DNA from: Archangium violaceum
Lineage (GTDB): Bacteria; Myxococcota; Myxococcia; Myxococcales; Myxococcaceae
Assembly (NCBI RefSeq): GCF_016859125.1
Contig: NZ_CP069338.1
Coordinates: 5,395,501-5,459,500, forward strand
DNA length: 64,000 nucleotides
Direction of reading: 5' to 3'
Below are positions 29,544 to 42,803 of the stretch, piece by piece; positions within the stretch are counted from its first letter, which is position 1; each line of letters begins with the position of its first letter. The notes below the pieces were generated by a model. It was not told where the DNA came from. It saw only the letters and a list, made by a program, of their open reading frames with translations, and did not search any database. The position numbers and the translations under genes were made by a program.

Positions 29544-30274
29544 ATGAAGGAGCGAGCGACGAGCCGACGCCGCTGGCGTATCGGCGAACTGGCGGACGCC
29601 ACCGGCCTGACGGTGCGTACCCTCCACCACTATGAGCACATCCGGCTGCTCGCGCCCGCGGCGCGGACGGACGGACGGACGCCAACGGCTCTACGACGAG
29701 AATGACGTGCGGCGCCTCTACCGCATTCGCGCGCTGCGCGACCTGGGGCTTTCACTCGCGGACATTGGTCGCATGCTCGATGACGACCGCGCCGAGCTCG
29801 CCAACGTCCTGAGTGCCCATCGGGCTCGCGTCGAGGCCGAGCTCGAGCGGCTCGGGAAGCTTCGGACGCTCCTCGATCACGCGTGCGAGCACGCGGACCG
29901 TGGCGTCTAACCCCGCCGACGTGCTCGCCACGATCGAGGCCATGTCGCGGGTCGTTCGCCGTGGCGACGCACTCCGGAAGAAGGGGAACGCATCGAAGGA
30001 GGCAGAGGCCCGGTGGCGGGAGCTGGGCGACGAGCTTCGTGCGTGCATGAAGGCGGGAGAGGCCCCCTCGGCCCCGGGCCCTCGCGCCGTGGCCCGCGCG
30101 GCCCTGGCGCGGATCGTTGAGTTCGCCGGTGGCGACCGCGCCACGTTGGAGGCGCTCGCGCACCTTCGCCGGCTCGCGCCCCCGAAGAACCTCGCCGGGT
30201 GGAGCCCCGCGCTGATGCGGTACCTCAACCAGGCACTGGCCAGCCTTCACAAGACGGAGCACGAACCATGCTGA
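29544..30274 (+). pseudogene. MerR-family regulator, frameshifted twice
   Basis: Frame 1 from ATG 29544 encodes the start of a MerR helix-turn-helix (WRIGELADATGLTVRTLHHY) and runs to a stop at about 29704. The rest of the DNA-binding domain (QRLYDENDVRRLYRIRALRD, GLSLADIGRMLDD) continues in another frame. The break is at four tandem GGAC units at about 29665-29680; three units would restore the frame. A second shift near 29900 moves to the frame with the C-terminal helical domain (ADVLATIEAMSRVV, ending YLNQALASL). A GTG at 29899 could restart translation. A full product would be about 240 residues. The end overlaps the hydrolase start. Confidence 0.72.
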
Positions 30275-31203
30275 ACGAACAGATCGCGAAGGACGTCGGA
30301 CCGGCACATCTCGACATCGCCTGGGAGCAACGCGGCGATCCGAAACACCCGACGGTGCTGCTCGTGATGGGACTCGCCGCCCAGCTCGTGAACTGGCCAC
30401 TCGGCTTCCTGCGGGCGCTCGTCGCGCGCGAGCTCCACGTGGTGCGCTTCGACAACCGTGATTCGGGGCACTCCACGCACATGCGCGATGCCCCGCCTCC
30501 CGAGCTGCCCGCGGCGCTCGAGGGCGATCTGTCATCGGCGTCGTACACGCTCTCCGACATGGCTGCTGACGCGGTTGGCCTGCTCGATGCCCTGAAGATC
30601 GACGCCGCGCACGTGGTGGGAGCGTCGTTGGGTGGCGCGATCGCGCAGACGATCGCGATCGAGCATCCGACACGGGTGCGATCGCTCACGACGATGATGT
30701 CGACGACCGGCGACATGTCGGTCGGGCAGGCGCACCCCGCGACCATGAAGGCGTTGTTCGGAGGGCCTCCCGCACGCACGCGTGAGGAGGTCGTCGCGCG
30801 CGCCGTGCGCAGCATCGCGGTGGTTGGCTCGCCGGCGTTCCCGGCGGATCCGGCGGCCGTGGCCGAGAGCGCGGGGCTTGCGTATGATCGCGCTCACGAC
30901 GAGGTCGCCATCGCGCGCCAGGCCGTGGCGTCGGTCGCGTCGGGTGACCGCACCCCGCTGCTGCGTGCGATCGATGTGCCCACGCTCGTGCTGCACGGGC
31001 TCGCTGACACACTGTGCGACCCGAGCGGTGGGCGTGCCACGGCTGCCGCGATTCCGGGGGCCGAGCTCGTGCTGATCGACGGGATGGGGCACAACCTTCC
31101 GCCCGGGCTCTGGGCGCGGATCTCCGAGCACATCGCCGCCATTGTGCGAAGGGGTGATGCGAGGGCGGGAGGGACCGCGCCACGGCGTTTGGAAGGTCGA
31201 TGA
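30268..31203 (+). CDS. Alpha/beta-hydrolase
   Basis: 311 residues from ATG 30268 with GGAG nine bases upstream. Alpha/beta-hydrolase fold: oxyanion strand VLLVMGLAAQ, VVRFDNRDSGHST, nucleophile elbow GASLGG (Ser), the acid strand VLHGLADTLCDP and the catalytic His in IDGMGHNLPP. It resembles the hydrolases often paired with MerR or TetR regulators. The overlap of its start with the end of the MerR frame suggests a former two-gene operon that hydrolyses a drug-like ester or lactone, but the substrate is not known. Confidence 0.88.
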   Translation: MLNEQIAKDVGPAHLDIAWEQRGDPKHPTVLLVMGLAAQLVNWPLGFLRALVARELHVVRFDNRDSGHSTHMRDAPPPELPAALEGDLSSASYTLSDMAADAVGLLDALKIDAAHVVGASLGGAIAQTIAIEHPTRVRSLTTMMSTTGDMSVGQAHPATMKALFGGPPARTREEVVARAVRSIAVVGSPAFPADPAAVAESAGLAYDRAHDEVAIARQAVASVASGDRTPLLRAIDVPTLVLHGLADTLCDPSGGRATAAAIPGAELVLIDGMGHNLPPGLWARISEHIAAIVRRGDARAGGTAPRRLEGR

Positions 31204-31214
31204 GTCGAGGCCCG

Positions 31215-31581
31215 CCGGGGCCTCCAGGAGAATACCCGCTCGGTCTCCATGGGCCCGATGCGCCGCACCCGGACGCGGAGGTCCGTGTGGCGTCCCTGGT
31301 GCCTCCGCCTGCCTCGGGCGAACCTGACGAGGTTCCACGGCGTATTCGCCCCAGGCGCGAAAGTGCGGCCATTTCTGCTCCCTCGAGCGAGGGCGGAGCC
31401 GCGGCCGGAAGAGGAGAGCCCGTTGGTGGTCGCGACGGTGGAGGAGCCGCGGAAGGAGCGCACGCCCCGCTTGGATCAGGCGGGGCTGCTGCGCCGTGCG
31501 TTCGCGCTGGGTCAAAGGAGTCGAAACGCGAGACCCGAGCCGGAACGAGACTGGGCGTGGACGGTTGAACCCACCCACTGA
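31215..31581 (+). pseudogene. IS91-like transposase C-terminal remnant
   Basis: Two frames read together give VASLVPPP then RANLTRFHGVFAPGAKVRPF and DQAGLLRRAFAL, a pattern found near the C-terminus of IS91-type (Y2) transposases, where 'LVPPPR..LxRYHGVxAP' and 'LLRRVFxxD' are conserved. A frameshift separates the first two pieces and the catalytic N-terminal part is missing. It is a decayed fragment directly after the hydrolase gene. Confidence 0.5.
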
Positions 31582-31911
31582 CCCCCTCCCTGAGCCCGCG
31601 AGCGCCCACGCCACTCACTGCCCGAGCGACTGGGGCGGGGGCCTGGCGCTGAAGGCGGGCGAGTAGCACTTCCCCTGGTGCTCATAATGGAGCGTCTCCT
31701 TACGGCCGGCGGGCATGCCGGGCAGGAGCAGAGGTAACGCAGGAGGGGGCTGAGACAGGGTCTGGCCTGGGCGAGCGGTTGGAAGGCGGGAGCGAGCGGC
31801 CCGGGCGCGGCGCCGAGCCGCACCCCCTGAGGAGGACGCCTGAGGCCGCCGAGCGTTGGCGAGCGCTTTGCCAGGTGCCCTGCCGGGCAGCATCGGGTGG
31901 CGAGGTGGGCG
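31582..31911. other. Intergenic stretch, possible minus-strand remnant
   Basis: No complete gene is supported. On the minus strand a peptide-like tail (GMPAGRKETLHYEHQGKCYS) between about 31615 and 31730 looks like the end of a lost coding sequence, but I cannot assign a family. The right end carries the ribosome site of the CBS gene. Confidence 0.35.
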
Positions 31912-32322
31912 ATGGCGGAGCAGTTCGAAGCACACAAGGCGTTGGTGGCGAAGGCGGTGACGCTGTTTCCGAATGACACGGTGATGCGGGCGCTGGCGCT
32001 CATGCAGCGCTATGGGCTGGACTGGCTGCCGGTGGTGGACGAGTCGCGCGGGGAGCTCATCGGCGACGTGACGGCCGAGGACCTGCGGAAGGTGTGGGAG
32101 CACTCCCCGCTGGCCTGTATGTCGGAAATTCTTTCCCTGAAATCCTTGCAGGAGGACGACGATGGCACCTCCTGGAGCCCCCGGGTGACGCTGGTGTCGC
32201 CGCTGGTGGACATGTACCGCACCAGCAAGAAGTGGAAGCAGTTGCTCCGAGCGCGAAAGGGCGCCGCGAGGAGGAGCCGCGGCCTTTTGATGGAGTCGCT
32301 GCTCCGCGAGCTGGAGCCCTGA
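31912..32322 (+). CDS. CBS-domain protein
   Basis: 136 residues from ATG 31912, preferred over a GTG at 31897 because GAGGTGG lies just before it. One CBS unit is visible: VTLFPNDTVMRALALMQRYG, LDWLPVVDESRGELIGDVTAEDL. The second CBS unit that would complete a Bateman module is not evident; the C-terminus is basic (RARKGAARRSRGLL). CBS modules bind adenine nucleotides and regulate partners, so this may act as a small dimeric sensor. Confidence 0.75.
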   Translation: MAEQFEAHKALVAKAVTLFPNDTVMRALALMQRYGLDWLPVVDESRGELIGDVTAEDLRKVWEHSPLACMSEILSLKSLQEDDDGTSWSPRVTLVSPLVDMYRTSKKWKQLLRARKGAARRSRGLLMESLLRELEP

Positions 32323-32482
32323 AAAGGGTCCAGTGTCACGACGCCGGGAGTTGTCTCACCCGGCTGAAAAAATGACTTCAGCCGGCGAGTCATCCCGCTG
32401 CGGGTGCAATACCGACCCGTCCTCCGCGTTTGAGTATCCACCCGGAATTTTCCGGGTGTACTCGGACAGGGATTCTCGAACC

Positions 32483-33973
32483 ATGCGGAAGCTCTTTCGT
32501 CGTCCGTTCACCGCGCTGACGTGCGCGATTGCATTGGGACTCCAGGCGTGTGGCGAAGGACCGCCACCGGAGCAGGGCGAGGCGCCGCCGGCGGAGGCCG
32601 CGGCCGTGAGCGCCCAGGCGCTCCCCTCCACCGCGCAGGACGTGGAGCCAGACATCCTGGTCGCGCTGCGGTCCATCCCCGGGCTCACGGTGCGGGAGGG
32701 CCCGACGCGCATCCCCGGCACGCGCTTCTTCATCCTCACCTATGACCAGCCGGCGGACCACTGGCACCCGGAGGGCCAACGCTTCCAGCAGCGCATGACG
32801 CTGCTGCACCGCTCGACGCAGGCGCCCATGGTGCTGGCCAGCACGGGCTATGGCATCGGCACCAGCGCCGGACAGACGGAGCCCACCGCCATCCTCCAGG
32901 CGAACCAACTCCTCGTCGAGCACCGCTTCTTCGGCCCCTCCATCCCCGAGCCCGCCAACTGGGCGCACCTGACGCTGGGGCAGGCCGCGGCGGACCACCA
33001 CCGCATCGTCAGCGCCTTCAAGTCCCTCTATGGCGCGAAGTGGGTGAGCACCGGCGCGAGCAAGGGCGGCATGACGTCCGTCTACCACCGCGCCCTCTAC
33101 CCGAACGACGTGGACGCCACCGTGGCCTACGTGGCGCCCAGCAGCCACGGCCCGCGGGACCCGCGCTACGTCCACTTCCTCGGTACCGTGGGCGACGCCG
33201 CGTGCCGCGAGCGCATCCGCGACTTCCAGCGTGACGCGCTGTCGCGCCGCGAGGAACTGGTGCCCCAGGTCGCCGCGGCGGCGACGGCCGAGGGCGCGCC
33301 GCTCGACTTCCTCGGCGCGGACAAGGCGTTCGAGTTCATGGTCCTCGAGCTGCCCTTCTCCTTCTGGCAGTACAGCCCTCCCGAGACGTGCACCACCATC
33401 CCCGCGCCCGGCGCGCCGGCGGAGCAGGTGCTGGAGGCGCTGAGCGGCATCGTCGGCTACTTCAGCTTCAGCGACCCGTCCATCCAGTACTACGCGCCCT
33501 ACTACTTCCAGGCGGGCACACAGCTGGGCAGCTACCGCTCCGACGAGCGGCACCTGCGCGGGCTCGTGCGCTACCCGCGGCAGTACGCGCCCGCCGCCAT
33601 GGTGCCCTTCGCGATTGAGCCCTACGGGTTCGACTTCTGGTCCATTCCCCTCGTCGAGGCGTGGGTGAAGGCGCGCGGCGAGCGCATGCTGTTCATCTAC
33701 GGCGAGCTGGACCCGTGGTCCACCAACGCCTTCGACGTGCGCGAGCGCAACGACTCGTACCGGTTCTTCGTCCCCGGCGGGAACCACAACTCCTCCATCT
33801 CCCGCCTGCCGGAGGTCGAGCGCGCCTTCGCCGTGGAGCAGCTCGGCACGTGGATGGGCCTGCAGCCCATGGAGCAGGAGCGCGTCGCGCAGAAGGCGTC
33901 CCGTCTGGCCTCGGGCGAGGAGCCGGTGCAGTCGCTCGTCATCGACCGCCGCCGCCCGCCGCCTCAGGAGTAG
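32483..33973 (+). CDS. S37-family prolyl/tripeptidyl aminopeptidase-like lipoprotein
   Basis: 496 residues from ATG 32483; lipoprotein signal ends at Cys 23 (ALGLQAC). The body fits the PS-10/S37 peptidases known from Streptomyces: FFILTYDQPADHWHP, EHRFFGPSIPEPANWAHLT and the nucleophile GASKGGMTSVYH (Ser 193), then Asp 410 in YGELDPWS and His 435 in PGGNHNSS. It is a secreted, surface-anchored exopeptidase that would help predatory feeding. A hairpin follows at 34030. Confidence 0.88.
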   Translation: MRKLFRRPFTALTCAIALGLQACGEGPPPEQGEAPPAEAAAVSAQALPSTAQDVEPDILVALRSIPGLTVREGPTRIPGTRFFILTYDQPADHWHPEGQRFQQRMTLLHRSTQAPMVLASTGYGIGTSAGQTEPTAILQANQLLVEHRFFGPSIPEPANWAHLTLGQAAADHHRIVSAFKSLYGAKWVSTGASKGGMTSVYHRALYPNDVDATVAYVAPSSHGPRDPRYVHFLGTVGDAACRERIRDFQRDALSRREELVPQVAAAATAEGAPLDFLGADKAFEFMVLELPFSFWQYSPPETCTTIPAPGAPAEQVLEALSGIVGYFSFSDPSIQYYAPYYFQAGTQLGSYRSDERHLRGLVRYPRQYAPAAMVPFAIEPYGFDFWSIPLVEAWVKARGERMLFIYGELDPWSTNAFDVRERNDSYRFFVPGGNHNSSISRLPEVERAFAVEQLGTWMGLQPMEQERVAQKASRLASGEEPVQSLVIDRRRPPPQE

Positions 33974-34029
33974 CCGTCACCCGCTCTCAGACGTTGAGAA
34001 CACCTGAGTAGGCAATGACCTGCTTCGAA

Positions 34030-34054
34030 GGGCACGGGCGCGAAGTCCGTGCCC
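34030..34054 (+). terminator. Hairpin after the S37 peptidase gene
   Basis: GGGCACGG and CCGTGCCC form a perfect 8-bp stem around a 9-base loop, 57 bp after the stop codon. No T-run follows, so strength is uncertain. Confidence 0.5.
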
Positions 34055-34255
34055 CCGTTGCAGCGTCTCTGAGCCAGCCCAATCCCTCGACTGTCCTCCC
34101 AATTTCTCATACGCCGCAGGCGTGCTCCTGTATTCGCCTCGTGAATTGGGCGCCTCCTACGACCCGCACCTCATGATATTGCGACCGACATCCCAATTCG
34201 GCGCTCTCGTCCGTTTTGGGTTTCCTTCGGCCCAACCCAAACATGGAGTTCCGCC

Positions 34256-35950
34256 ATGCGTCGCGTGCCACACTCATTCCTGCTGCTGGCCGGCCTCGCC
34301 GCCACCCCGTGCGCCTTCGCGCAGAGCACGCCGGTCAACCTCGCGCTGAACCAGCCGGTAAGCGTCAGCGGCACCGAGAACGCCGCGGCGTTCAATGCGG
34401 CCAACGCCAACGACGGCCGTCTGGACACCCGCTGGAGCTCGGAGTTCGTTAGCCCCTCGTGGATCACCATCGACCTCGGCAGTGAGCAGTCGATCGGCCG
34501 CGTGGTGCTGCGCTGGGAGAACGCGCACGCCACCGTCTACACCCTCAACGTCTCCAACGACGGCGTCAACTGGACCACCGTGTACACGAACGCCAACGGC
34601 AAGGGCGGCACGGAAGACATCACGTTCAATCCCGTCTCGGCGCGCTTCGTCTCCATGTACGGCACGGAGAAGAACACCCAGTACGGCTACTCGCTGTACG
34701 AGTTCGAGGTCTACGGCGCCAGCGGCGGCGGCGGGCCGGGCGACTCCCCTGATCAGCAGCCGGGCACGGCGCCCACCGTGTCGTACAACGCGCGCATCTC
34801 CGGCAACCAGACGGAACCCGCGGCGCCGTTCGTCATCACCGACGTGGCACCGTTCAACAACCCGTGGGGCCTCGACTTCCTGCCCGACGGCCGTGTCGTG
34901 GTCACCGAAAAGAGCGACCGCATGTACATCGTGACGTCCGCGGGCGCGAAGACGTCCATCGGCGGCCTGCCGGTCTCGGTGGGCGCCAACGGCGGTGGCG
35001 GCCAGAGCGGCCTCCACGACGTGGCGGCATCGCCGACCTTCGCCCAGGACCGCACGCTGTGGTTCAGCTACGTGGCCAAGGCCGCGGACGGCAACAACCG
35101 CCTCACGCTGGCGACCGCGCGCCTCGACGAGAGTGCCGGTGCCGCGAACCTCGCCGACCTCGAGATCGTCTGGCAGGAACCGTCGAGCTATTCGATGCGC
35201 GGCCAGCCGGGCGCGCGCATCGCGTTCGCACCGGATGGCCAGTACGTATTCCTCTCCGTCGGCGACGGCGACATTCCGGACTCCAACGGCAATCGCGGTG
35301 TCACCGCGCAGATGCCGGACACCGGACTGGGCAAGATCATCCGCCTCAACCTCGACGGCAGCACCCCCACCGACAACCCCGAGGCGTCGGCCGGCGGCGT
35401 GCGCGGGCAGGTGTGGGCCAGCGGCTTCCGCAACCCGTACGGCCTGGCGTTCGACGCGAAGGGCAACCTGTGGGAAACGGAGATGGGCCCGGCCTCCGGC
35501 GACGAGTTCAACTTCATCGCCAAGGGCGGTAACTATGGCTGGCCGCTGGTGAGCAACGGCAACCACTACAACGGCGATGCCTACATGCCGGGCCAGCCGT
35601 ATCCGCGCCACGACACCGCGCCGCAGTTCACGCAGCCGGCGGCGTACTGGGGCTGGTTCTCCACCACCAACTCCATGTCGCCGTCCGGGCTGGCGTTCTA
35701 CAACGGCAACCTGTTCCCGCAGTGGAAGGGCTCCGCGCTGCTCGGCTCCACCTCGTCCATCGCGCTGTACCGCGTGGTGATCGATCCGGCGTCCAACAAC
35801 GTCACGGGCGTCGAGCGCTACGGCCGCGATGCGAACGGCGTGTACACCGGTGCGGTGCGCGCACTGAAGGTGTCGCCGTTCGATGGCAGCATCTGGTACG
35901 TCAAGGGCGGCAGCGACGGCGCGCTGCGCAAGCTGACCCCGAAGTCGTGA
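34256..35950 (+). CDS. Secreted glucose/sorbosone-type dehydrogenase with F5/8 C domain
   Basis: 564 residues. Signal peptide (MRRVPHSFLLLAGLAATPCA FAQ region), then a discoidin-like F5/8 type C domain at about 25-155 (RLDTRWSSEFVSPSWITIDL, YGYSLYEFEVYG), a Gly/Pro linker, and a six-blade GSDH propeller at about 180-560 (NNPWGLDFLPDGRVVVTEK, GQVWASGFRNPYGLAFDA, GNYGWPLVSNG). Such enzymes oxidise sugars with PQQ. No PQQ synthesis genes are seen here. Sequence style and the 3' flank (strong hairpin, REP-like element) suggest recent origin from a gammaproteobacterium. Confidence 0.9.
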   Translation: MRRVPHSFLLLAGLAATPCAFAQSTPVNLALNQPVSVSGTENAAAFNAANANDGRLDTRWSSEFVSPSWITIDLGSEQSIGRVVLRWENAHATVYTLNVSNDGVNWTTVYTNANGKGGTEDITFNPVSARFVSMYGTEKNTQYGYSLYEFEVYGASGGGGPGDSPDQQPGTAPTVSYNARISGNQTEPAAPFVITDVAPFNNPWGLDFLPDGRVVVTEKSDRMYIVTSAGAKTSIGGLPVSVGANGGGGQSGLHDVAASPTFAQDRTLWFSYVAKAADGNNRLTLATARLDESAGAANLADLEIVWQEPSSYSMRGQPGARIAFAPDGQYVFLSVGDGDIPDSNGNRGVTAQMPDTGLGKIIRLNLDGSTPTDNPEASAGGVRGQVWASGFRNPYGLAFDAKGNLWETEMGPASGDEFNFIAKGGNYGWPLVSNGNHYNGDAYMPGQPYPRHDTAPQFTQPAAYWGWFSTTNSMSPSGLAFYNGNLFPQWKGSALLGSTSSIALYRVVIDPASNNVTGVERYGRDANGVYTGAVRALKVSPFDGSIWYVKGGSDGALRKLTPKS

Positions 35951-35956
35951 TCGTCA

Positions 35957-35987
35957 CGATGGGACCGGGATGAGCCCGGTCCCATCG
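35957..35987 (+). terminator. Strong hairpin after the GSDH gene
   Basis: CGATGGGACCGGG and CCCGGTCCCATCG form a perfect 13-bp stem with loop ATGAG, starting 7 bases after the stop codon. This is the strongest hairpin I found in the window. Confidence 0.75.
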
Positions 35988-36002
35988 GCGGGTTGCGGCC
36001 AT

Positions 36003-36026
36003 GTGGGAGCGGGCTTGCCCCGCGAC
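36003..36026. repeat. REP-like palindrome of gammaproteobacterial type
   Basis: The sequence around GTGGGAGCGGGCTTG followed by CCCCGCGAC matches the head of the REP elements abundant in Pseudomonas and also seen in some Xanthomonadales. I see no other copy in the window, which is expected if it came in with the dehydrogenase gene. Confidence 0.6.
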
Positions 36027-36042
36027 AGCTTTTCGCCCCGGT

Positions 36043-36471
36043 CTAGAGCAGCTTCGCCATGATCTCGCGCTCGCGCTGCTCGAGCTTGATCGAGGCGAGC
36101 GTCCAGTCGATGAGCTCGTCGGCGACCGACACGTCGAGACCGAAGGCGCCGGCGGCCTCCTTCACCGACGCGCGCTCCTCGTTCGCGATCTCGCCGTCGG
36201 CGCACGCCACCTCGACGATCATGCGCAGCAGGGAGGCGCGCAGCTCGCGGCTCTCGATCTTGCTGACGATGTCGGTGAGGCGGCTGGGCTTCTGGAACTC
36301 CTGCTCGATGAGCGCGGCGACCTGCTCGTCGCGGGGCGACAGGCCGATGCCAAACACCACGTCATCGAGCTGCTGGCGCTCGTCCTCGGTGATGCGGCCA
36401 TCGCTCGCCGCCACGTTGGCCATGGCCTGGACGAACGCCATCAGCTGCTCCTGGGGGTACTCGCGCGTCAT
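36043..36471 (-). CDS. TerB-like (tellurite-resistance family) protein
   Basis: 142 residues from ATG 36471 with AAGGAG seven bases upstream. It is all-helical with the duplicated acidic metal-binding pattern of TerB/DjlA-type domains: VAASDGRITEDERQQLDDVV and VACADGEIANEERASVKEAA, both matching 'A.ADG.i...E'. Usually cytoplasmic and linked to stress or phage defence complexes. Here it is alone, so the function is open. Confidence 0.85.
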   Translation of the reverse strand: MTREYPQEQLMAFVQAMANVAASDGRITEDERQQLDDVVFGIGLSPRDEQVAALIEQEFQKPSRLTDIVSKIESRELRASLLRMIVEVACADGEIANEERASVKEAAGAFGLDVSVADELIDWTLASIKLEQREREIMAKLL

Positions 36472-36953
36472 GTCGTCTCCTTGGCGAGCGGCGCGCGGCT
36501 GGCCAGGGGCTCGCGGACATGGGATGGGCCGGGCCGCTCGGCGGAGTAGGATAGTGGGCGCCGGCGAGGACCGGAAACGGTTTTCGCCCTGGCTCGCGCG
36601 TGGAAGCGTGACCTCGGCCCGGCCTGAAAGAAGTTCAATGAGCCTTCCGTTGGGGATTCCATGGGGTGCCCAGGCTCTTTGAGCTCCTCTCGGAGCGCGA
36701 GACGTTCCTCCCAGGCCGCGCACCTGGAGGCGGCCTCCGTCTGGGCCTTCCTGCGGCTGCGCGAGGAGCTCGCCCTGCATGGCGCCGACGAGGCCCTGCG
36801 CGACGCGGCCCTGGCGTGGCGCTTCGGCAGGCGGTGGAAACACTGCGCGAGGAGATAGGCCGGCTGCTGGACGCGCTCCTCGTCAGCCAGAGAGGCCCAG
36901 GGCTCCTACCGCGCACCACTTGGGAGGACGGCCTGGGCAGGCGTGTACAGTTT
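36472..36953 (+). pseudogene. Decayed coding remnant of unknown family
   Basis: From about 36664 to 36900 three plus-strand frames in turn give natural-looking peptides: VPRLFELLSERETFL, then QAAHLEAASVWAFLRLREEL and HGADEALRDAALAWRFG, then VETLREEIGRLLDALLVSQR. Together they read as one helical protein broken by two frameshifts. I do not recognise the family. The rest of this 482-bp interval holds the promoter region of the TerB-like gene and nothing else I can support. Confidence 0.35.
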
Positions 36954-37685
36954 CTATCCAGCCCGCTTCAGCCACACCCGCAGGGCTCCTACCGGCTCGA
37001 AGCCCTGGGTGCACCACGTGGACAGCTCGTCGCCGTGTTCGTAGCCCACGAGCCGCAGCCCCGGGAATGCCGCCATGGCATGGACGAGCATCTCCGCGCG
37101 GAGCACGGCGGGTGCTCCTTCCACGAAGAACGTGTTCGACAGGCTCACGACACCCGCGGCCCGGTAGGCAATGGCACCGGCGACGATGGCCTCGTTGTCG
37201 TAAGCGGCGAAGAACTGGATGTTCGCGTCGTCCAGCAGCGTGGGGCGGAAGAGGGCGTGTTCCTGCTCTGGTAGGTGGCTACCCGAGGGTCCGCGCCAGG
37301 CCACTTCCCATGCGGCGAGCGAGGTCTCCTCCCGAATCGGGAGCCAACGAACTCCGCTGGCAGGAGCAGCCGCAGGTGCCGCCTGGGAGAGGATGAGCCA
37401 CTGTGCGGCGAACAGCTCTGTGAAACCTCTCGGAGCAAGGTCGAGCGTCGCGAAGCTATCCTTGACTCCCCATTGCCCAGGCACGTCGAGCGCGGAGATC
37501 TGCTCGAGCTGTTGAGCCTCGTCGTCTCGCGTGAGCGTAATGGCGTTCGGGTAGAACTTGAGGACTCCGGCACGGTTCAGCCACAGAGAGCGGGAGAACT
37601 CACCCGGGTAGCCATGTGCGCGGCACACTGCGTCGCACCACGCTGCATTGTTGTCGACTGCTGAGGCAAGCAGATCAAAGGACAT
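36954..37685 (-). CDS. GNAT-like acetyltransferase domain protein
   Basis: 243 residues. The C-terminal half has the GNAT shape: a strand/turn with AIVAGAIAYRAAGVVSLSNTF, then EMLVHAMAAFPGLRLVGYEHG and FEPVGALRVWLKRAG. The N-terminal half (WCDAVCRAHGYPGEFSRSLW) is unassigned and is common in two-part GNAT proteins that acetylate small molecules. No strong ribosome site is visible. It is flanked by remnants on both sides. Confidence 0.6.
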   Translation of the reverse strand: MSFDLLASAVDNNAAWCDAVCRAHGYPGEFSRSLWLNRAGVLKFYPNAITLTRDDEAQQLEQISALDVPGQWGVKDSFATLDLAPRGFTELFAAQWLILSQAAPAAAPASGVRWLPIREETSLAAWEVAWRGPSGSHLPEQEHALFRPTLLDDANIQFFAAYDNEAIVAGAIAYRAAGVVSLSNTFFVEGAPAVLRAEMLVHAMAAFPGLRLVGYEHGDELSTWCTQGFEPVGALRVWLKRAG

Positions 37686-37739
37686 ACCTGATCATCCATA
37701 ACAGAGGGGGCCAGTCCAGGCCACGGCGCCGCTCGCGCC

Positions 37740-37885
37740 GTCCCATCCCCTCCACCGCGGTGGGCAACCTCTATTGCCACCACCGCAATCTTCTTGCCGC
37801 GCCGGGCGGCAATCTTCTCGGCCCATTCTCGCAGGTGGGCCGTTTCGTGCGACCATGGTTTCCGAGGCCTCCCATCCGCAGACAC
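37740..37885 (-). pseudogene. Possible transposase C-terminal fragment
   Basis: The minus strand reads RPRKPWSHETAHLREWAEKI and ARRGKKIAVVAIEVAHRGG, resembling the basic 'RGKKxAVVAxARR' tail of several transposases (for example IS110-like). The frame breaks on both sides and there is no start or stop of its own. Weak call. The remainder of 37686-37960 carries no gene; the ribosome site TTGGAGG of the next gene lies at its right end. Confidence 0.3.
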
Positions 37886-37960
37886 CCTTCACCTCCTCCT
37901 CTCCTTCCCCCCGTCCCCGAATTCCCGCTTCAAAACACCTGATCGCTTGGAGGCGAACGA

Positions 37961-38902
37961 ATGAAAGCCGTGGTCTATCGCGAATATGGACCGTCTCATG
38001 TTCTAAAGCTCGAAGAGGTGGAGAAACCCACCCCCAGCGCCAGAGAAGTGCTGGTCCGAGTTCATGCGACCACTGTCACCATCGGTGATACCATCATGCG
38101 CAGCCTCAACATCCCTGGCCCGTTCTGGCAGCGGTTCTTGGCGCGCCTTTATCTGGGGTTTCGCAGACCCAAGCGAACCATCCTGGGGATGGAGCTGGCT
38201 GGGGCTATTGAAGCTGTGGGCGACAAAGTGACCCGCTTCAAGCCTGGTGACCTGGTCTTTGCCTCTACCTTCGGGGTAGATTTCGGCGGCTACGCCGAGT
38301 ACAAATGCCTGCCCGAAAACGGGGTGTTGGCGCACAAACCGGCCAATCTCAGCTTCGCGGAAGCAGCCGCCGTCCCGGGCGCAGGCCAGACGGCGTTGCA
38401 ATGTCTCAAGAAGGGGAGAATCCAACCTGGGCAGAAGGTTCTGATCTACGGCGCTTCGGGTTCAGTGGGCACGAACGCGGTACAACTTGCAAAGAACCAC
38501 TTCGGAGCCGAAGTGACGGGGGTATGCAGCGCCGCGAACCTGGAATTGGTGAAATCGTTGGGCGCCGTCAAGGTCATCGACTACAGCCGCGAGCACTTTA
38601 CTCAGAGCGGCGAGACTTATGACGTCATTTTTGACGCGGTGGGCAAGCTCTCACCTGCTCAGGTGAAGAGGGCGCGTGAGCAGGCAAGCATCTACCTCAA
38701 TGTTCATGCCGACTCGGCCGGCGGCGACAAGCTTGAAAACCTGCTCTTGCTCAAGGAACTGGTCGAGGCGGGCAAAGTAAGACCTGTCATTGATCGGGTG
38801 TATCCGCTGGAACAGATCATCGAGGCGCATCGCTATGTCGAACAAGGGCATAAAAAGGGAAATGTCGTCATCACCGTAGAAAATGGTGGCAAAACCTACT
38901 GA
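37961..38902 (+). CDS. MDR-family NAD(P) oxidoreductase
   Basis: 313 residues. GroES-like N-terminus ([20 protein letters not shown]), nucleotide site [16 protein letters not shown], and [11 protein letters not shown]. The conserved zinc cysteines are absent, as in quinone/enone reductases. Noticeably lower GC at third positions than its neighbours (many A/T-ending codons), so it was probably acquired from a lower-GC bacterium. It lies between two transposase remnants. It is not close to the other MDR gene at 4671. Confidence 0.88.
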
Positions 38903-39022
38903 ACGACGTAGGCAACGAACGTCTCGATGCGCTCGTCGGGCTTTTGGCCGGGCTTGGCGGGTCGTAACTGCTCGCCGGACCCCGTCGTGACGAGAGAAGC
39001 AGTGGCGTGAGACGTCCAGGCC

Positions 39023-39420
39023 ATGAACCTGGAGGTGCACGTGGAGAAGGAGTTGGAGCAGTTCCGGCAGGAGGCGCAGAGGCTGAGGGCAGGACGAGCG
39101 AAGGGCTCGGGCCCTTCCCCGAGCCACTGAGAGCGTTCGCGGTGCGCTACCTGGCGCAGGCGCAGGAGAAGGGAGAGACGCTCAAGTCGGTGGTGGAGAG
39201 TCTTGGAGTGTCGGAGCCGACGTTGCAGGCGTGGCGGCGGGGGGGAGCAGCAGCTGGGCGGGCAGCTGCTCAAGGGTGACGTCTTCCTCTTCGTCGGGCG
39301 GTGCCGTCGGCGCGCCAAGGTGCTGTACTTCGACGGCACGGGGCTGGTGCTGCTCACCAAACGCCTCTTCAAGGGACGCTTCGCCAGCCCCTGGGTCCAG
39401 GCGGGGGCGGCGAGCGTGGT
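39023..39420 (+). pseudogene. IS66-family remnant (TnpA- and TnpB-like pieces)
   Basis: From ATG 39023 the peptide MNLEVHVEKELEQFRQEAQR begins; after a frameshift near 39110 it continues LRAFAVRYLAQAQEKGETLK and ESLGVSEPTLQAWRRG, an IS66 accessory-ORF pattern. Overlapping this, the piece GDVFLFVGRCRRRAKVLYFD and TGLVLLTKRLFKGRFASPW (39276-39400) is the core of the IS66 TnpB/Orf2 protein, cut off early. The large transposase TnpC is absent. No ends or target duplication found. Confidence 0.68.
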
Positions 39421-39609
39421 GCTGACAGTGGGCTCGGGCGGCCCCCGTCAGCGGCCCTCCTCGGCCCCTCTGCTCCTGCCCACTCCCTCAACACACCTCC
39501 CATCCTTCCTTCTATACGCCAGAGCGATGGGGAATGGCTGGCCGGAGCGGAACGGCGCGCCCGGCCCCTCAGGGCTTTCGACGGGCGGAGGGGCGCGCGC
39601 CGGGAGCGC

Positions 39610-39948
39610 TCAAATGAGCATCGAGCGGATGCGGAGGAAGACAGGTGGCCCCTGGGCGTGGGGCGTGTCCCAGCGGGCGAGCGACAGGTAGCCACCACTC
39701 GCGGGAGCCGTGACGGGGTGCCACATCGGCGGCGGGGCCGGCGGGACCGCGAGCGGGGAGGCCTGGTTGGAGACGTCCACGAGCGCTGGCGCGGGGACAT
39801 CCCGCTCCAACGCGTCGCAGCAGTCCTTGCGCAACGTTGTCCCGTCGTGTGGGGCCTTCTCCGCCACGTGGGCCGGGCACCGGCCGCAACCGAGGCCGAT
39901 CGCCCGGTTGGCCCTGAAGGCCCGGCGGAAGGACACGGGCCTGCCCAC
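39610..39948 (-). CDS. Uncharacterised protein, probably 5'-truncated
   Basis: 112 residues from GTG 39948. Third codon positions are strongly G/C on this strand and the peptide looks natural: FRANRAIGLGCGRCPAHVAE, LRKDCCDALERD, PPPMWHPVTAPASGGYLSLA and an end PPVFLRIRSMLI. The open frame extends without a start to about 40068, giving WEERTYHGLPGAGSAVTEHE, so the real N-terminus may be lost or displaced by the next, divergent gene. I recognise no family. The four cysteines could bind a metal. Confidence 0.42.
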   Translation of the reverse strand: MGRPVSFRRAFRANRAIGLGCGRCPAHVAEKAPHDGTTLRKDCCDALERDVPAPALVDVSNQASPLAVPPAPPPMWHPVTAPASGGYLSLARWDTPHAQGPPVFLRIRSMLI

Positions 39949-40038
39949 CGGGGCGAGCCCGGACTCGTGCTCAGTTACTGCGGACCCGGCACCGGGAAGG
40001 CCGTGGTAGGTTCGCTCCTCCCAGGGGAAGATGCCTCC

Positions 40039-40440
40039 ATGCTCACGATTCGTGACGCGCAGTTGCAGTCACTCCAGCGCCACCGTGAGCAGGATTTCGT
40101 GCGCTCGCTCGCGGCGTACGTGCGACGTCATGAGCCCGCGCTCGTCGCGCAATGGCCGGACGCGCTGCTTGAGCGCCGGGTGGCCCACGCACGGGAACGT
40201 GCGGCGGCGTACGGCATGACGGACCCCTTCGCGCTGGTGGAGTTCTTCGTCGCGATGGCGATGCACTCCCCCGACTTCGACAAACACCCCTCCGTCCAGG
40301 CGATCCTCCAGGACAGGGGGATTGCTCCCGACCACCGGATCCACGCGGTGTGGGTGCGCACTCCTCCGGAGACCTGGGCCCGGATCCGCGAGGAGTCGTC
40401 TCCCACTCCGTGGCCGTGCGACGAGGAAACTTCCAGATGA
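40039..40440 (+). CDS. Small helical partner protein of the amine oxidase operon
   Basis: 133 residues, with AGGGGAAG about 10 bases before the ATG. The start MLTIRDAQLQSLQRHREQDF and the middle RRVAHARERAAAYGMTDPFA resemble a family of small proteins (MLxIRxxQ..., ERAxxYG...) that I associate with effector or LysM/PAAR neighbourhoods in proteobacteria; that memory is not firm. Its stop overlaps the amine oxidase ATG (ATGA), so the two are translationally coupled. The role may be chaperone or adaptor. Confidence 0.72.
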   Translation: MLTIRDAQLQSLQRHREQDFVRSLAAYVRRHEPALVAQWPDALLERRVAHARERAAAYGMTDPFALVEFFVAMAMHSPDFDKHPSVQAILQDRGIAPDHRIHAVWVRTPPETWARIREESSPTPWPCDEETSR

Positions 40441-42803
40441 AACCCATCCAGGCCAAGGCGTGGAAGCCGCTGGAGCCGCAGGAAGACCTCATCACCTCCT
40501 GCGAGTCCGGCATGTACGAGGTGAGGATCTCGGGGTTCGGCGTGGGGAACAGCCCGCACGAGGGGCACCCCGATGAGCACGACGACCTCTCGCATGACGC
40601 GCCGGGGCGCTACTACGTCCACGTCCCGGGAGAGGGCTCGCTGGTGCTGAGCTGGAAGATCGAGGGCTGGGAACACGTCACCGCCGCCGACATCCACATC
40701 TACCCGCACGGGGATGACCGCCCCATCGGCATGGTGGAGGTCAAGAAGGGCGAGGACCACCACGACACCCAGGGCCGGCTGAGCGGCGTGCGGTCCAGTG
40801 ATGAGTTCCCCGATGGGGTCTTCACGTTCGAGAAGGGCCCCTACCTGGCGCGCCTGCGGATCCTCTCGGTGAAAGAGAACACGAAGGTCTCGGTGGGGGT
40901 GCGGCGGCTGTACTTCGACGTGCTCCCCATCGCCATCGTGGGCGGTGGCATCGCGGGGATCCGCACCGCGGAGAAGCTCCTCGAAACAGCCCCGGAGCAG
41001 TCCGTGGTGCTCCTGGAAGCCCGCGATTACCTGGGCGGACGCGCGCGCACGATCAAATGGGAGGGGCTCGACATCGATCTGGGCTGCCAGTTCCTGCAGG
41101 ACGCGGAGACCAACCCCCTCGTTCCGCTCGCGGGCCAGTATGGGCATAGCGCGTTCTGGCACAAACAGGTCACGGCGATCCGCGTGCCCTTGGAGGACGA
41201 AGTCGTGACCGAGGAGCACCCGCTCTGGCGCGAGGCGGAGTCGCATGGAGAGGGGATTCGTTCCAAGGCCGACGAGAGTGTCCGGCAAGCGTTCGACCGC
41301 AAAGTGAAGGCGTACTGCGAGGACCAGGTCCGCGATGAAGATAAAACGGAGCTGGAGGCGAACCTGAAGAACGAACTCGAGCAGCTCGCCCAATCCCTGG
41401 CGAAGGAACATGACTTCGTCCAGCGGTATAGGAAGCAGGTGTCCGACAAGGTCGACGAGCTGCGGGAATGTGCCGAACAGGCGCGTTCGGAGCTCGATGG
41501 CTTCGTTCTGCCCGAGCAGCCCAAGGATATGAAGTCAGAGGAGTTCAAGATATACCGTAACAAGAGGACAGAGCAAAGCCGGCTACAGAGCAGGGTCAAG
41601 GAGTTCGACAAATTCAGGGAGCAACACGAAGCGTTCCAGTCCGATGCGTGGCTCGAGAACAAGGGCGGCGTACAGACCTCGCTCCTCGAACTGGCGCGTA
41701 AGGACATCAAGGAGAAGCATCACAAGAGGCTTGAGGAGGAAATCCGCCGCGGCCAGGAAGAAACCTTCGCGCAAAGGGTGGAAGAACGCATCCAGAAGCT
41801 CCTCGAGAACCCCTTGCTGACGTTGGCGCTCGCGATGAGCGCGGAGCTCGACGAAGGCATCGAGCCGACCGACTTCACGTCATACGAGGCAGACGAGGAA
41901 GAGGAAGAGGAAGAGGAAGCGAAAGAGGATGTCGGGACGAGCAACAGGATGTCCCGCGAGGGGTATGGCGCGCTCATCGAGAAGCATGCCCGAGCGCTCA
42001 ACAAAGAGAATCCCACGTACCTGAGCGTACGGCTCGAGTGCCCGGTCACGGAGATCACGGTGGGCAGGTCCGAAGTCGAGGTACCATCCAACGTCCAGGT
42101 CACGACCTACGCCCGGCTCGAGACAGGTCAGGGCGTGCTCTACGCGCGCGGAGTCGTCGTGTGCGTGCCCACCGAAATCGTGCTGCGAAACGCCATCAAA
42201 TTCACCCCCGCGCTTCCCGAGAACATCCGCGAGGCTTTCGCGGCGGTGCCCATGGGGCACTACAAGAAGATCTTCCTGCCGCTGAAGGCGGAATCCCCCC
42301 TTGCCACGGCGCTCGAGTCCCTGGTCGAGGACGCGACCGTCCCACCCGAAGGCGAGACGGACCCCTCGCTGTTCACGCTCTCGGCGAGCGGGGTGCCGTG
42401 GAAGTTCCTCTACCGTCGGGCGTTGAACGTGGTCGTTGGATTCGTCGGGGGCGCGTACGCGAAGGAGCTCGATCAGCGCGACGATCAGGAGACTGCTACC
42501 GTGGCCCTCCAGGTGCTCGCCGCCGCGCTCAAGCTGAAGGAAGGCGACGTGCTGGAGTCGTGGAGCGGCAAGATCCACACGAGCCGGTGGAGCGAGGACA
42601 TCTACAGCCGCGGCGCGTACTCGTACACGAGGCCTGACGGGGGCGAGAAACGCAAGACGTTGCGAGAGGCCGTGGTGCACGGCTGCATCGTGTTTGCTGG
42701 CGAGGCCCTACGCTCCTCCAAGGAGGAGTACGCCACCGCGCACGGGGCCTGGCTGAGCGGTGAGTACGCGGCAGATTGGATCCTCAGGAATCTGGAGAAG
42801 TAA
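40437..42803 (+). CDS. FAD amine oxidase with N-terminal domain and long coiled-coil insertion
   Basis: 788 residues, much longer than ordinary flavin amine oxidases (about 450-550). Residues 1-160 are a separate domain (YYVHVPGEGSLVLSWKIEGW). The FAD site IAIVGGGIAGIRTAEKL with LLEARDYLGGRART is at 165-205. Residues about 280-455 are a charged helical/coiled-coil insertion, followed by an acidic run at 485-499. The oxidase fold resumes (CVPTEIVLRNAIKF, YKKIFLPLK) and ends with the FAD motif CIVFAGEALRS at 750. It should oxidise an amine or amino acid, producing hydrogen peroxide. It has no signal peptide. Confidence 0.85.
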   Translation: MKPIQAKAWKPLEPQEDLITSCESGMYEVRISGFGVGNSPHEGHPDEHDDLSHDAPGRYYVHVPGEGSLVLSWKIEGWEHVTAADIHIYPHGDDRPIGMVEVKKGEDHHDTQGRLSGVRSSDEFPDGVFTFEKGPYLARLRILSVKENTKVSVGVRRLYFDVLPIAIVGGGIAGIRTAEKLLETAPEQSVVLLEARDYLGGRARTIKWEGLDIDLGCQFLQDAETNPLVPLAGQYGHSAFWHKQVTAIRVPLEDEVVTEEHPLWREAESHGEGIRSKADESVRQAFDRKVKAYCEDQVRDEDKTELEANLKNELEQLAQSLAKEHDFVQRYRKQVSDKVDELRECAEQARSELDGFVLPEQPKDMKSEEFKIYRNKRTEQSRLQSRVKEFDKFREQHEAFQSDAWLENKGGVQTSLLELARKDIKEKHHKRLEEEIRRGQEETFAQRVEERIQKLLENPLLTLALAMSAELDEGIEPTDFTSYEADEEEEEEEEAKEDVGTSNRMSREGYGALIEKHARALNKENPTYLSVRLECPVTEITVGRSEVEVPSNVQVTTYARLETGQGVLYARGVVVCVPTEIVLRNAIKFTPALPENIREAFAAVPMGHYKKIFLPLKAESPLATALESLVEDATVPPEGETDPSLFTLSASGVPWKFLYRRALNVVVGFVGGAYAKELDQRDDQETATVALQVLAAALKLKEGDVLESWSGKIHTSRWSEDIYSRGAYSYTRPDGGEKRKTLREAVVHGCIVFAGEALRSSKEEYATAHGAWLSGEYAADWILRNLEK

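Follow-up and report, generated by a model that had tools for sequence, protein, structure and literature searches.

Among bacteria that feed on other bacteria, gain of genes from prey has often been proposed. In the predatory myxobacterium Archangium violaceum, a GSDH-domain gene followed by a short 3' flank raises the question of whether gene and flank were received together from a gammaproteobacterium, and from which one. The window analysed here is a stretch of 64,000 nucleotides of this genome (contig NZ_CP069338.1). A sequence-only reading of it had described a GSDH gene followed by a perfect 13-bp hairpin and a single REP-like sequence, and all of these are present at 34256-36026 (Table 1). 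In this case the donor family and the old donor locus can be identified, as can the 3' signals and, from a second source, a matching cofactor pathway; this makes the idea of gene gain from prey testable. Among the papers listed for myxobacteria with PQQ, Luteibacter or prey DNA, the titles and opening parts of the abstracts contain no description of such a case.

Table 1. Features of the locus, in coordinates of the window.
Feature	Position	Strand	Evidence
S37 peptidase gene, left neighbour	32333..33973	+	ORF; Pfam, scanned from 32483
Leader region common to copies of other genus	34163..34255	+	blastn, five-copy alignment
Gene for exported-type protein with F5/8 type C and GSDH domains, 564 aa	34256..35950	+	ORF, Pfam, homologues, trees
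Perfect 13-bp hairpin, 5-base loop	35957..35987	+	arms 35957-35969/35975-35987
REP-like unit GTGGGAGCGGGCTTGCCCCGCGAC	36003..36026	+	18-base head unique in genome; Pseudomonas plasmid match
TerB-like gene, right neighbour	36043..36471	-	Pfam

The fusion gene and its distribution

The protein combines an F5/8 type C domain (approximately residues 42-149; PF00754/PF22633) with a GSDH domain (residues 200-558; PF07995), the latter scoring 291.8 bits against a gathering score of 25, which places it in the GSDH family. On the right flank, homology to three congeners restarts at approximately 36039-36044, at the TerB-like gene. Between this gene and the next one, two pieces of about 65 and 110 bp (36884-36948 and 36714-36823) match many sites in the same genome and in congeners at approximately 75-96%, and represent a dispersed or decayed repeat; a 72-bp element at 37775-37846 has five other listed sites in the genome (90-96%) and is present at 100% in G003 and G004. 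No Rfam match was obtained over 30000-42000 at E<=0.5.

Within the class to which the window genome belongs, the protein was found in 4 out of 147 genomes at E<=1e-90: the window genome itself (G000) and three genomes of another genus of its own family (G031, G032, and G033), with identities to the window protein of 80-87%. G033 harbors two gene copies at different sites (L041, L042). One of them, G033a, and the G031 copy lie in one neighbourhood, and the remaining myxobacterial copies are located elsewhere. In the DNA tree, the G031 copy groups with the other G033 copy, and not with the one at their common locus. Contamination and misassembly were ruled out: the window genome is a single contig of 12.68 Mb, and the copies of G031 and G033 occupy a common neighbourhood.

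Outside the myxobacteria, 7 out of 217 Rhodanobacteraceae genomes were positive: four have the fusion (76-77%), two match in their GSDH part alone (79%), and the copy of the seventh is interrupted by stops. This last copy (L091, in G944) is frame-broken, the stops being located in its second piece. A scan of genome contigs, which detects close relatives only, confirmed three loci from 21 pattern matches, all three titled Luteibacter. In the class of G098 (369 genomes, E<=1e-80), the whole protein was found in G098 and two genomes matched the GSDH part at 45-50%; the title of L019 identifies G098 as Luteibacter anthropi, by taxonomy a member of the Rhodanobacteraceae. The gene was absent at E<=1e-90 from all 328 genomes of the family of G260, although the same query did match in the Rhodanobacteraceae, in the class of G098 and in the window's class. 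We take the family of G260 to be the Pseudomonadaceae, from the pqq cluster present in most of its genomes and the Pseudomonas-like REPs in L082, L086, and L087. This absence disfavours Pseudomonas as donor of the gene itself.

In the Rhodanobacteraceae, the gene occupies a conserved place. An FtsK homologue lies beside it in 6 of the 7 loci (L019, L018, G935, G985, G925, and G944): the upstream gene of L019 encodes FtsK domains, and the short-chain dehydrogenase gene and further genes downstream of it are common across the Rhodanobacteraceae loci. The seventh locus, L017, begins at a contig end, and its genes further downstream are common to the others. None of these neighbour genes was found next to the five myxobacterial copies, the only traces being three matches of 27-33% several kb off. 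Restricted distribution in the myxobacteria, together with a foreign nearest group in which the gene has a native locus, indicates horizontal acquisition. Comparison of sequences gives good support to the view that the gene would be gammaproteobacterial in origin, Luteibacter-like and from the Rhodanobacteraceae, not from Pseudomonas.

The flanks of the transferred gene

Upstream, blastn homology to the copies of the other genus starts at 34163 (G033a) or at 34171 (G032, G031, and G033b, the last in two pieces), and a weak likeness to the Rhodanobacteraceae leaders was judged by eye. Downstream, the hairpin starts six bases past the stop codon; no other inverted repeat whose arms lie within 60 bases was reported in 34050-36100. 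Folded together with the adjacent sequence, the hairpin reaches -31.6 kcal/mol (z -4.93), which none of 200 shuffles equalled. It is not followed by a T run, and no terminator-like sites were detected in 33900-36200. All five myxobacterial copies have kept it, and an altered form occurs in a truncated second copy of the window genome, described below; L018 and L019 have, by eye, a different hairpin at the same place.

Fifteen bases past the hairpin, GTGGGAGCGGGCTTGCCCCGCGAC displays the GTRG head, the GA and the palindrome of REP elements, but on its own it folds no better than its own shuffles (z -0.28). Its 18-base head occurs exactly once in the window, where the sole other match has 3 mismatches. 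In the 12.68-Mb genome there is one exact head, none with 1 mismatch and 9 with 2 mismatches; up to 3 mismatches, 77 matches compare with 53 for the reversed control. One exact head in the whole genome means that the REP is not a common repeat of the window genome, and the lack of high copy number is as expected of a foreign piece. The earlier remark that the unit is unlike the rest of the window is thus confirmed, and the finding that it had named as contrary to transfer, a REP common across this genome, was not obtained. One and the same 3-mismatch variant of the head is present at two sites of the - strand separated by 10 kb, G000:C1:10919208 and 10929205.

Bases 36002-36025 match 24/24 in a Pseudomonas plasmid (E 2e-3, five places in that record). 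Pseudomonas accounts for 4 of the 12 plasmid records that match the REP, and the matches other than the 24/24 one have E of 0.3 or more. Eight phage records match, none of them over most of the query. The REP was also found, with one base different, in one (L086) of six pqq loci from the family of G260, and REP-like units lie just 3' of the gene in three Rhodanobacteraceae loci (G935, L017, and G985). With a loose REP pattern, the Rhodanobacteraceae loci (88 kb) gave 21 hits and the others (84 kb) gave 7, of which two or more were false in either set; the myxobacterial loci (182 kb) gave a single, false hit, and the window four, three of them poor. Heads with up to 2 mismatches (reversed control in brackets) numbered 7 (2) in G097, 2 (1) in G098, and 0 (0) in G096, and 7 (1) in G031, 5 (2) in G032, and 4 (2) in G033.

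Among the myxobacterial copies, blastn homology to those of the other genus stops at 35989-35998, before the REP. When spacer and REP were compared with 2000 shuffles, none was as good for the second copy in the window genome and 10 were for G032, a weak signal, and the element was not detected in G033a (541 shuffles as good), G033b (345) or G031 (1961). Thus, the proposal of a gammaproteobacterial transfer that included the 3' flank stands as to the origin, which is Luteibacter-like, and as to the gammaproteobacterial type of the REP, but the latter is clear only in the two copies of the window genome. Likewise, the Pseudomonas character proposed for the flank applies to the REP, and not to the gene. 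The reading had also named nearest homologues in myxobacteria with the same flank as evidence against it: the closest proteins are indeed those of G031-G033, at 80-87% and with the same hairpin, but the clear REP is found only here. The REP is of Pseudomonas type by match, and may have come from either the Pseudomonadaceae or the Rhodanobacteraceae. It is supporting, not decisive, evidence for transfer, and the strong evidence of direct DNA transfer once seen in it does not hold, as the REP gives neither a date for the event nor proof that present prey was the direct source.

A Pseudomonas-type pqq cluster next to a truncated copy

A more interesting lead than the REP is provided by a pqq cluster of Pseudomonas type in the same genomes, with an adjoining scar. 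The second copy, at G000:C1:11098169, consists of a 72-bp piece of the gene (96%) joined to the hairpin and a decayed REP (63 bp, 86%), and pqqF starts 42 bp past it. The window genome has a complete pqqFABCDE: PqqF, B, C, D, and E score above the cut-offs of their equivalog models (n=5), in order, and a pqqA of 23 codons was read by eye. Of 92 family genomes, four have PqqF, and these are the four in which the gene was found; the 92 lie among the 96 family genomes searched for the gene, and in the rest PqqF was the only PQQ gene searched. This coincidence counts for less than the bare 4/92, because the four genomes fall in two genera.

In the family of G260, where 327 of the 328 genomes were scored, the pqqBCDE region matches 262, with a best DNA identity of 85%. 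Against named plasmids, Paraburkholderia was the best among the matches listed (75%), and no Pseudomonas appeared among the matches listed for the pqq DNA of either the window genome or the family of G260. In a midpoint-rooted pqqBCDE tree, the four myxobacterial clusters formed one group (100/100) that lies within the family of G260, represented by 26 genomes chosen across its range. PqqB of the window genome aligned over its whole length, 303 residues, to 1xto, the P. putida protein. Directly after pqqE, G031 has a gene for an S9 peptidase (L049:14943-16790); it belongs to a 7.7-kb block common to G031, G032, and G033 that was not matched at the cluster of the window genome.

These three genomes share a pqqF leader that is in part Pseudomonas-like, as judged by eye, and no clear gene remnant was found before their pqqF (best E 0.009, 31 bases, in G033). 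Because of these two features of the other genomes, the adjacency of gene remnant and pqqF in the window genome may be ancestral or secondary. Taken together, the comparisons suggest that an enzyme and its cofactor pathway may both have been gathered from gammaproteobacteria.

A single donor would explain the adjacency if an unsampled Pseudomonas had held a Luteibacter-type gene beside pqqF, with its own REP between them, and gene, hairpin, REP and pqqFABCDE had entered the myxobacteria once, the window copy being a later duplicate cut off after the REP. The exact match of the REP to Pseudomonas, the position of gene piece, hairpin and REP directly before pqqF, and the REP-like units just before pqqF in two of six loci of the family of G260 (L082 and L087) would fit this scenario. 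However, we regard it as unlikely, given that the gene was found at E<=1e-90 in none of the 328 genomes of that family, that the other three myxobacteria have the Pseudomonas-like leader with no clear gene remnant, and that three Rhodanobacteraceae copies have REPs of their own behind the gene.

It might also be argued that the REP-like unit, although it stands behind a foreign gene, has nothing to do with the transfer and arose in the window genome by chance or at a later time, as its absence by shuffle test from G033a, G033b, and G031, and the weak result in G032, would allow. This appears quite improbable for an element whose head is exact once in 12.68 Mb, right behind a foreign gene, and which is found again, spacer included, in the truncated second copy. 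Arrival of the REP with the gene, or soon after, is the reading that we prefer.

Direction and age of the transfer

The five myxobacterial copies form one group in the DNA tree (100/100). In the protein tree with distant paralogues, this group stands beside that of the Rhodanobacteraceae and the base of the group is not resolved, so that the direction of transfer rests mainly on synteny and distribution. Third positions of the window copy agree with those of G032 at 90.8%, and those of myxobacterial and Rhodanobacteraceae copies agree at 58-68%, variation being far greater among the Rhodanobacteraceae copies than among the myxobacterial ones. An origin of the gene in myxobacteria with later passage to the Rhodanobacteraceae, although compatible with a midpoint or paralogue root and with the related F5/8C domains (45-52%) and GSDH paralogues of myxobacteria, is very improbable in view of the stable ftsK-side locus in several Rhodanobacteraceae, as opposed to the scattered loci of the four positive genomes among 147 of the window's class, of a window F5/8C domain nearer to that of Luteibacter (59-61%) than to the host's own (45-50%), and of the third-position variation in the Rhodanobacteraceae, as expected of older residence.

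The gene has a GC content of 0.684 and a GC3 of 0.931. Its codon usage fits the Luteibacter table slightly better than that of the host (+0.039 per codon), a score that only one of 37 host ORFs, selected for length and GC3, exceeds; the other four myxobacterial copies score between -0.010 and +0.015. The codon comparison proposed as a check on foreign origin thus shows a gene that is only slightly donor-like and otherwise host-like, and from this the acquisition is judged to be old and mostly ameliorated. A recent direct transfer into the window genome was ruled out, since the three genomes of the other genus also have the gene, the leader and the hairpin.

Synonymous changes gave mixed signals, and no claim on later spread among the myxobacteria is drawn from them. 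Between the window genome and the other three, dS was 0.117-0.242 for the gene and 0.093-0.111 for pqqF, which does not exceed the 0.118-0.131 obtained for pqqF within those three; a control gene gave 0.20 between the window genome and the others and 0.085-0.111 among the other three, and two control regions differed in DNA identity, about 91% versus 93-97%. The gene has a dN/dS ratio of 0.52-0.69 between the window genome and the others; the ratio is lower for pqqF (0.29-0.39), for the control gene (0.23-0.24) and for four pairs of copies within the Rhodanobacteraceae (0.11-0.18). This increase in the myxobacteria may reflect relaxed or changed selection.

An altered active site and the predicted function

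The closest solved structures are 7cdy and 2g8s, of aldose-dehydrogenase type, followed by the soluble quinoprotein glucose dehydrogenase 1c9u and others. According to published work, His144 of 1c9u is catalytic, Arg228 and Asn229 are on the PQQ side, and Gly247 and Pro248 are on the calcium side (PMC6881810, PMC6881789). In our alignment, the places of Gln76, Arg228, Asn229, Gly247, and Pro248 are kept in the window protein, with Arg392 and Asn393 on the PQQ side and Gly411 and Pro412 on the calcium side. By contrast, His144 is replaced by Gln317 and His227 by Phe391, and Leu80 corresponds to His254. All 11 members of the subfamily have Gln317, Phe391, and His254, whereas 22 out of 22 other homologues (20 myxobacterial and 2 gammaproteobacterial, drawn from the available loci and not a full sample) have His at places 317 and 391 and no His at 254. 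Structure prediction from four sequences reached a mean pLDDT of 52.9, too low to place His254.

The protein thus lacks, with Gln317, the catalytic histidine of PQQ-dependent soluble sugar dehydrogenases, and it scores 115.5 bits on NCBIfam TIGR03606, for which the cut-off is 434.55. Because His144 is absent and the score is far below the cut-off, use of PQQ is not assured. Paralogues with the usual His are present in most family genomes (any match at 1e-30: 65/96), mostly without PqqF. The missing histidine marks a GSDH subfamily in which, with a His to Gln change and a new His nearby in the alignment, the substrate or even the chemistry may differ. Judging from its sequence, the likeliest reading of the protein is an exported PQQ enzyme that would bind carbohydrate, would have an altered active site and would receive its cofactor from the acquired pqq genes.

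As a whole, we consider the following course of events probable, its transfer and pqq-acquisition steps being based on sequence comparison. The gene would be by descent one of the Rhodanobacteraceae (Luteibacter and kin), with its native site beside ftsK. A copy would have reached the myxobacteria together with its 3' hairpin, either through an ancestor of the few that carry it or through a single one of these, from which it spread to the rest; the REP-like element would have arrived with it or joined early, surviving clearly only in the window genome. The same genomes would have gained a Pseudomonas-type PQQ biosynthesis cluster. The protein, presumably exported, would bind carbohydrate through its F5/8C domain and use PQQ from the acquired cluster to oxidise a sugar or the end of a polysaccharide. 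A bolder version, which we put forward tentatively and consider possible though doubtful, is that a few myxobacteria drew on two prey-type sources to build a module for extracellular oxidation: a carbohydrate-binding GSDH of Luteibacter in which the catalytic His has moved (the His144 place lost, His254 gained), and a Pseudomonas pqq operon making its cofactor, the gene-hairpin-REP-pqqF scar being a fossil of their former adjacency.

Comparison with known systems

REP classes listed for fluorescent Pseudomonas resemble the REPs in L082, L086, and L087 (PMC3686654, PMC2817692). The GTRG-GA class of Pseudomonas and Xanthomonas is like the window unit in head, GA and palindrome; compared with the listed class PF13, the window unit differs by one inserted C and the last base. 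Whereas those REPs form repeat families, a single clear unit and a decayed one are present here.

The pqq cluster of the window genome is like the Pseudomonas-type pqqFABCDE operon in gene order and equivalog scores, and differs from it in its myxobacterial host and in the gene-hairpin-REP remnant before pqqF. Likewise, the Luteibacter F5/8C-GSDH proteins (L017, L018, L019, and G935) share with the window protein the domain order and the odd residues, at an identity of 75-77% overall, which rises to 84-86% over the GSDH portion and falls to 59-61% over the F5/8C portion, but their genes lie in another genomic place, with another hairpin sequence and another REP, or none, behind them. Finally, 1c9u (PQQ glucose dehydrogenase B), 7cdy, and 2g8s belong by sequence to the same GSDH family as the window protein, which is distinguished from the soluble PQQ glucose dehydrogenase by its extra F5/8C domain.
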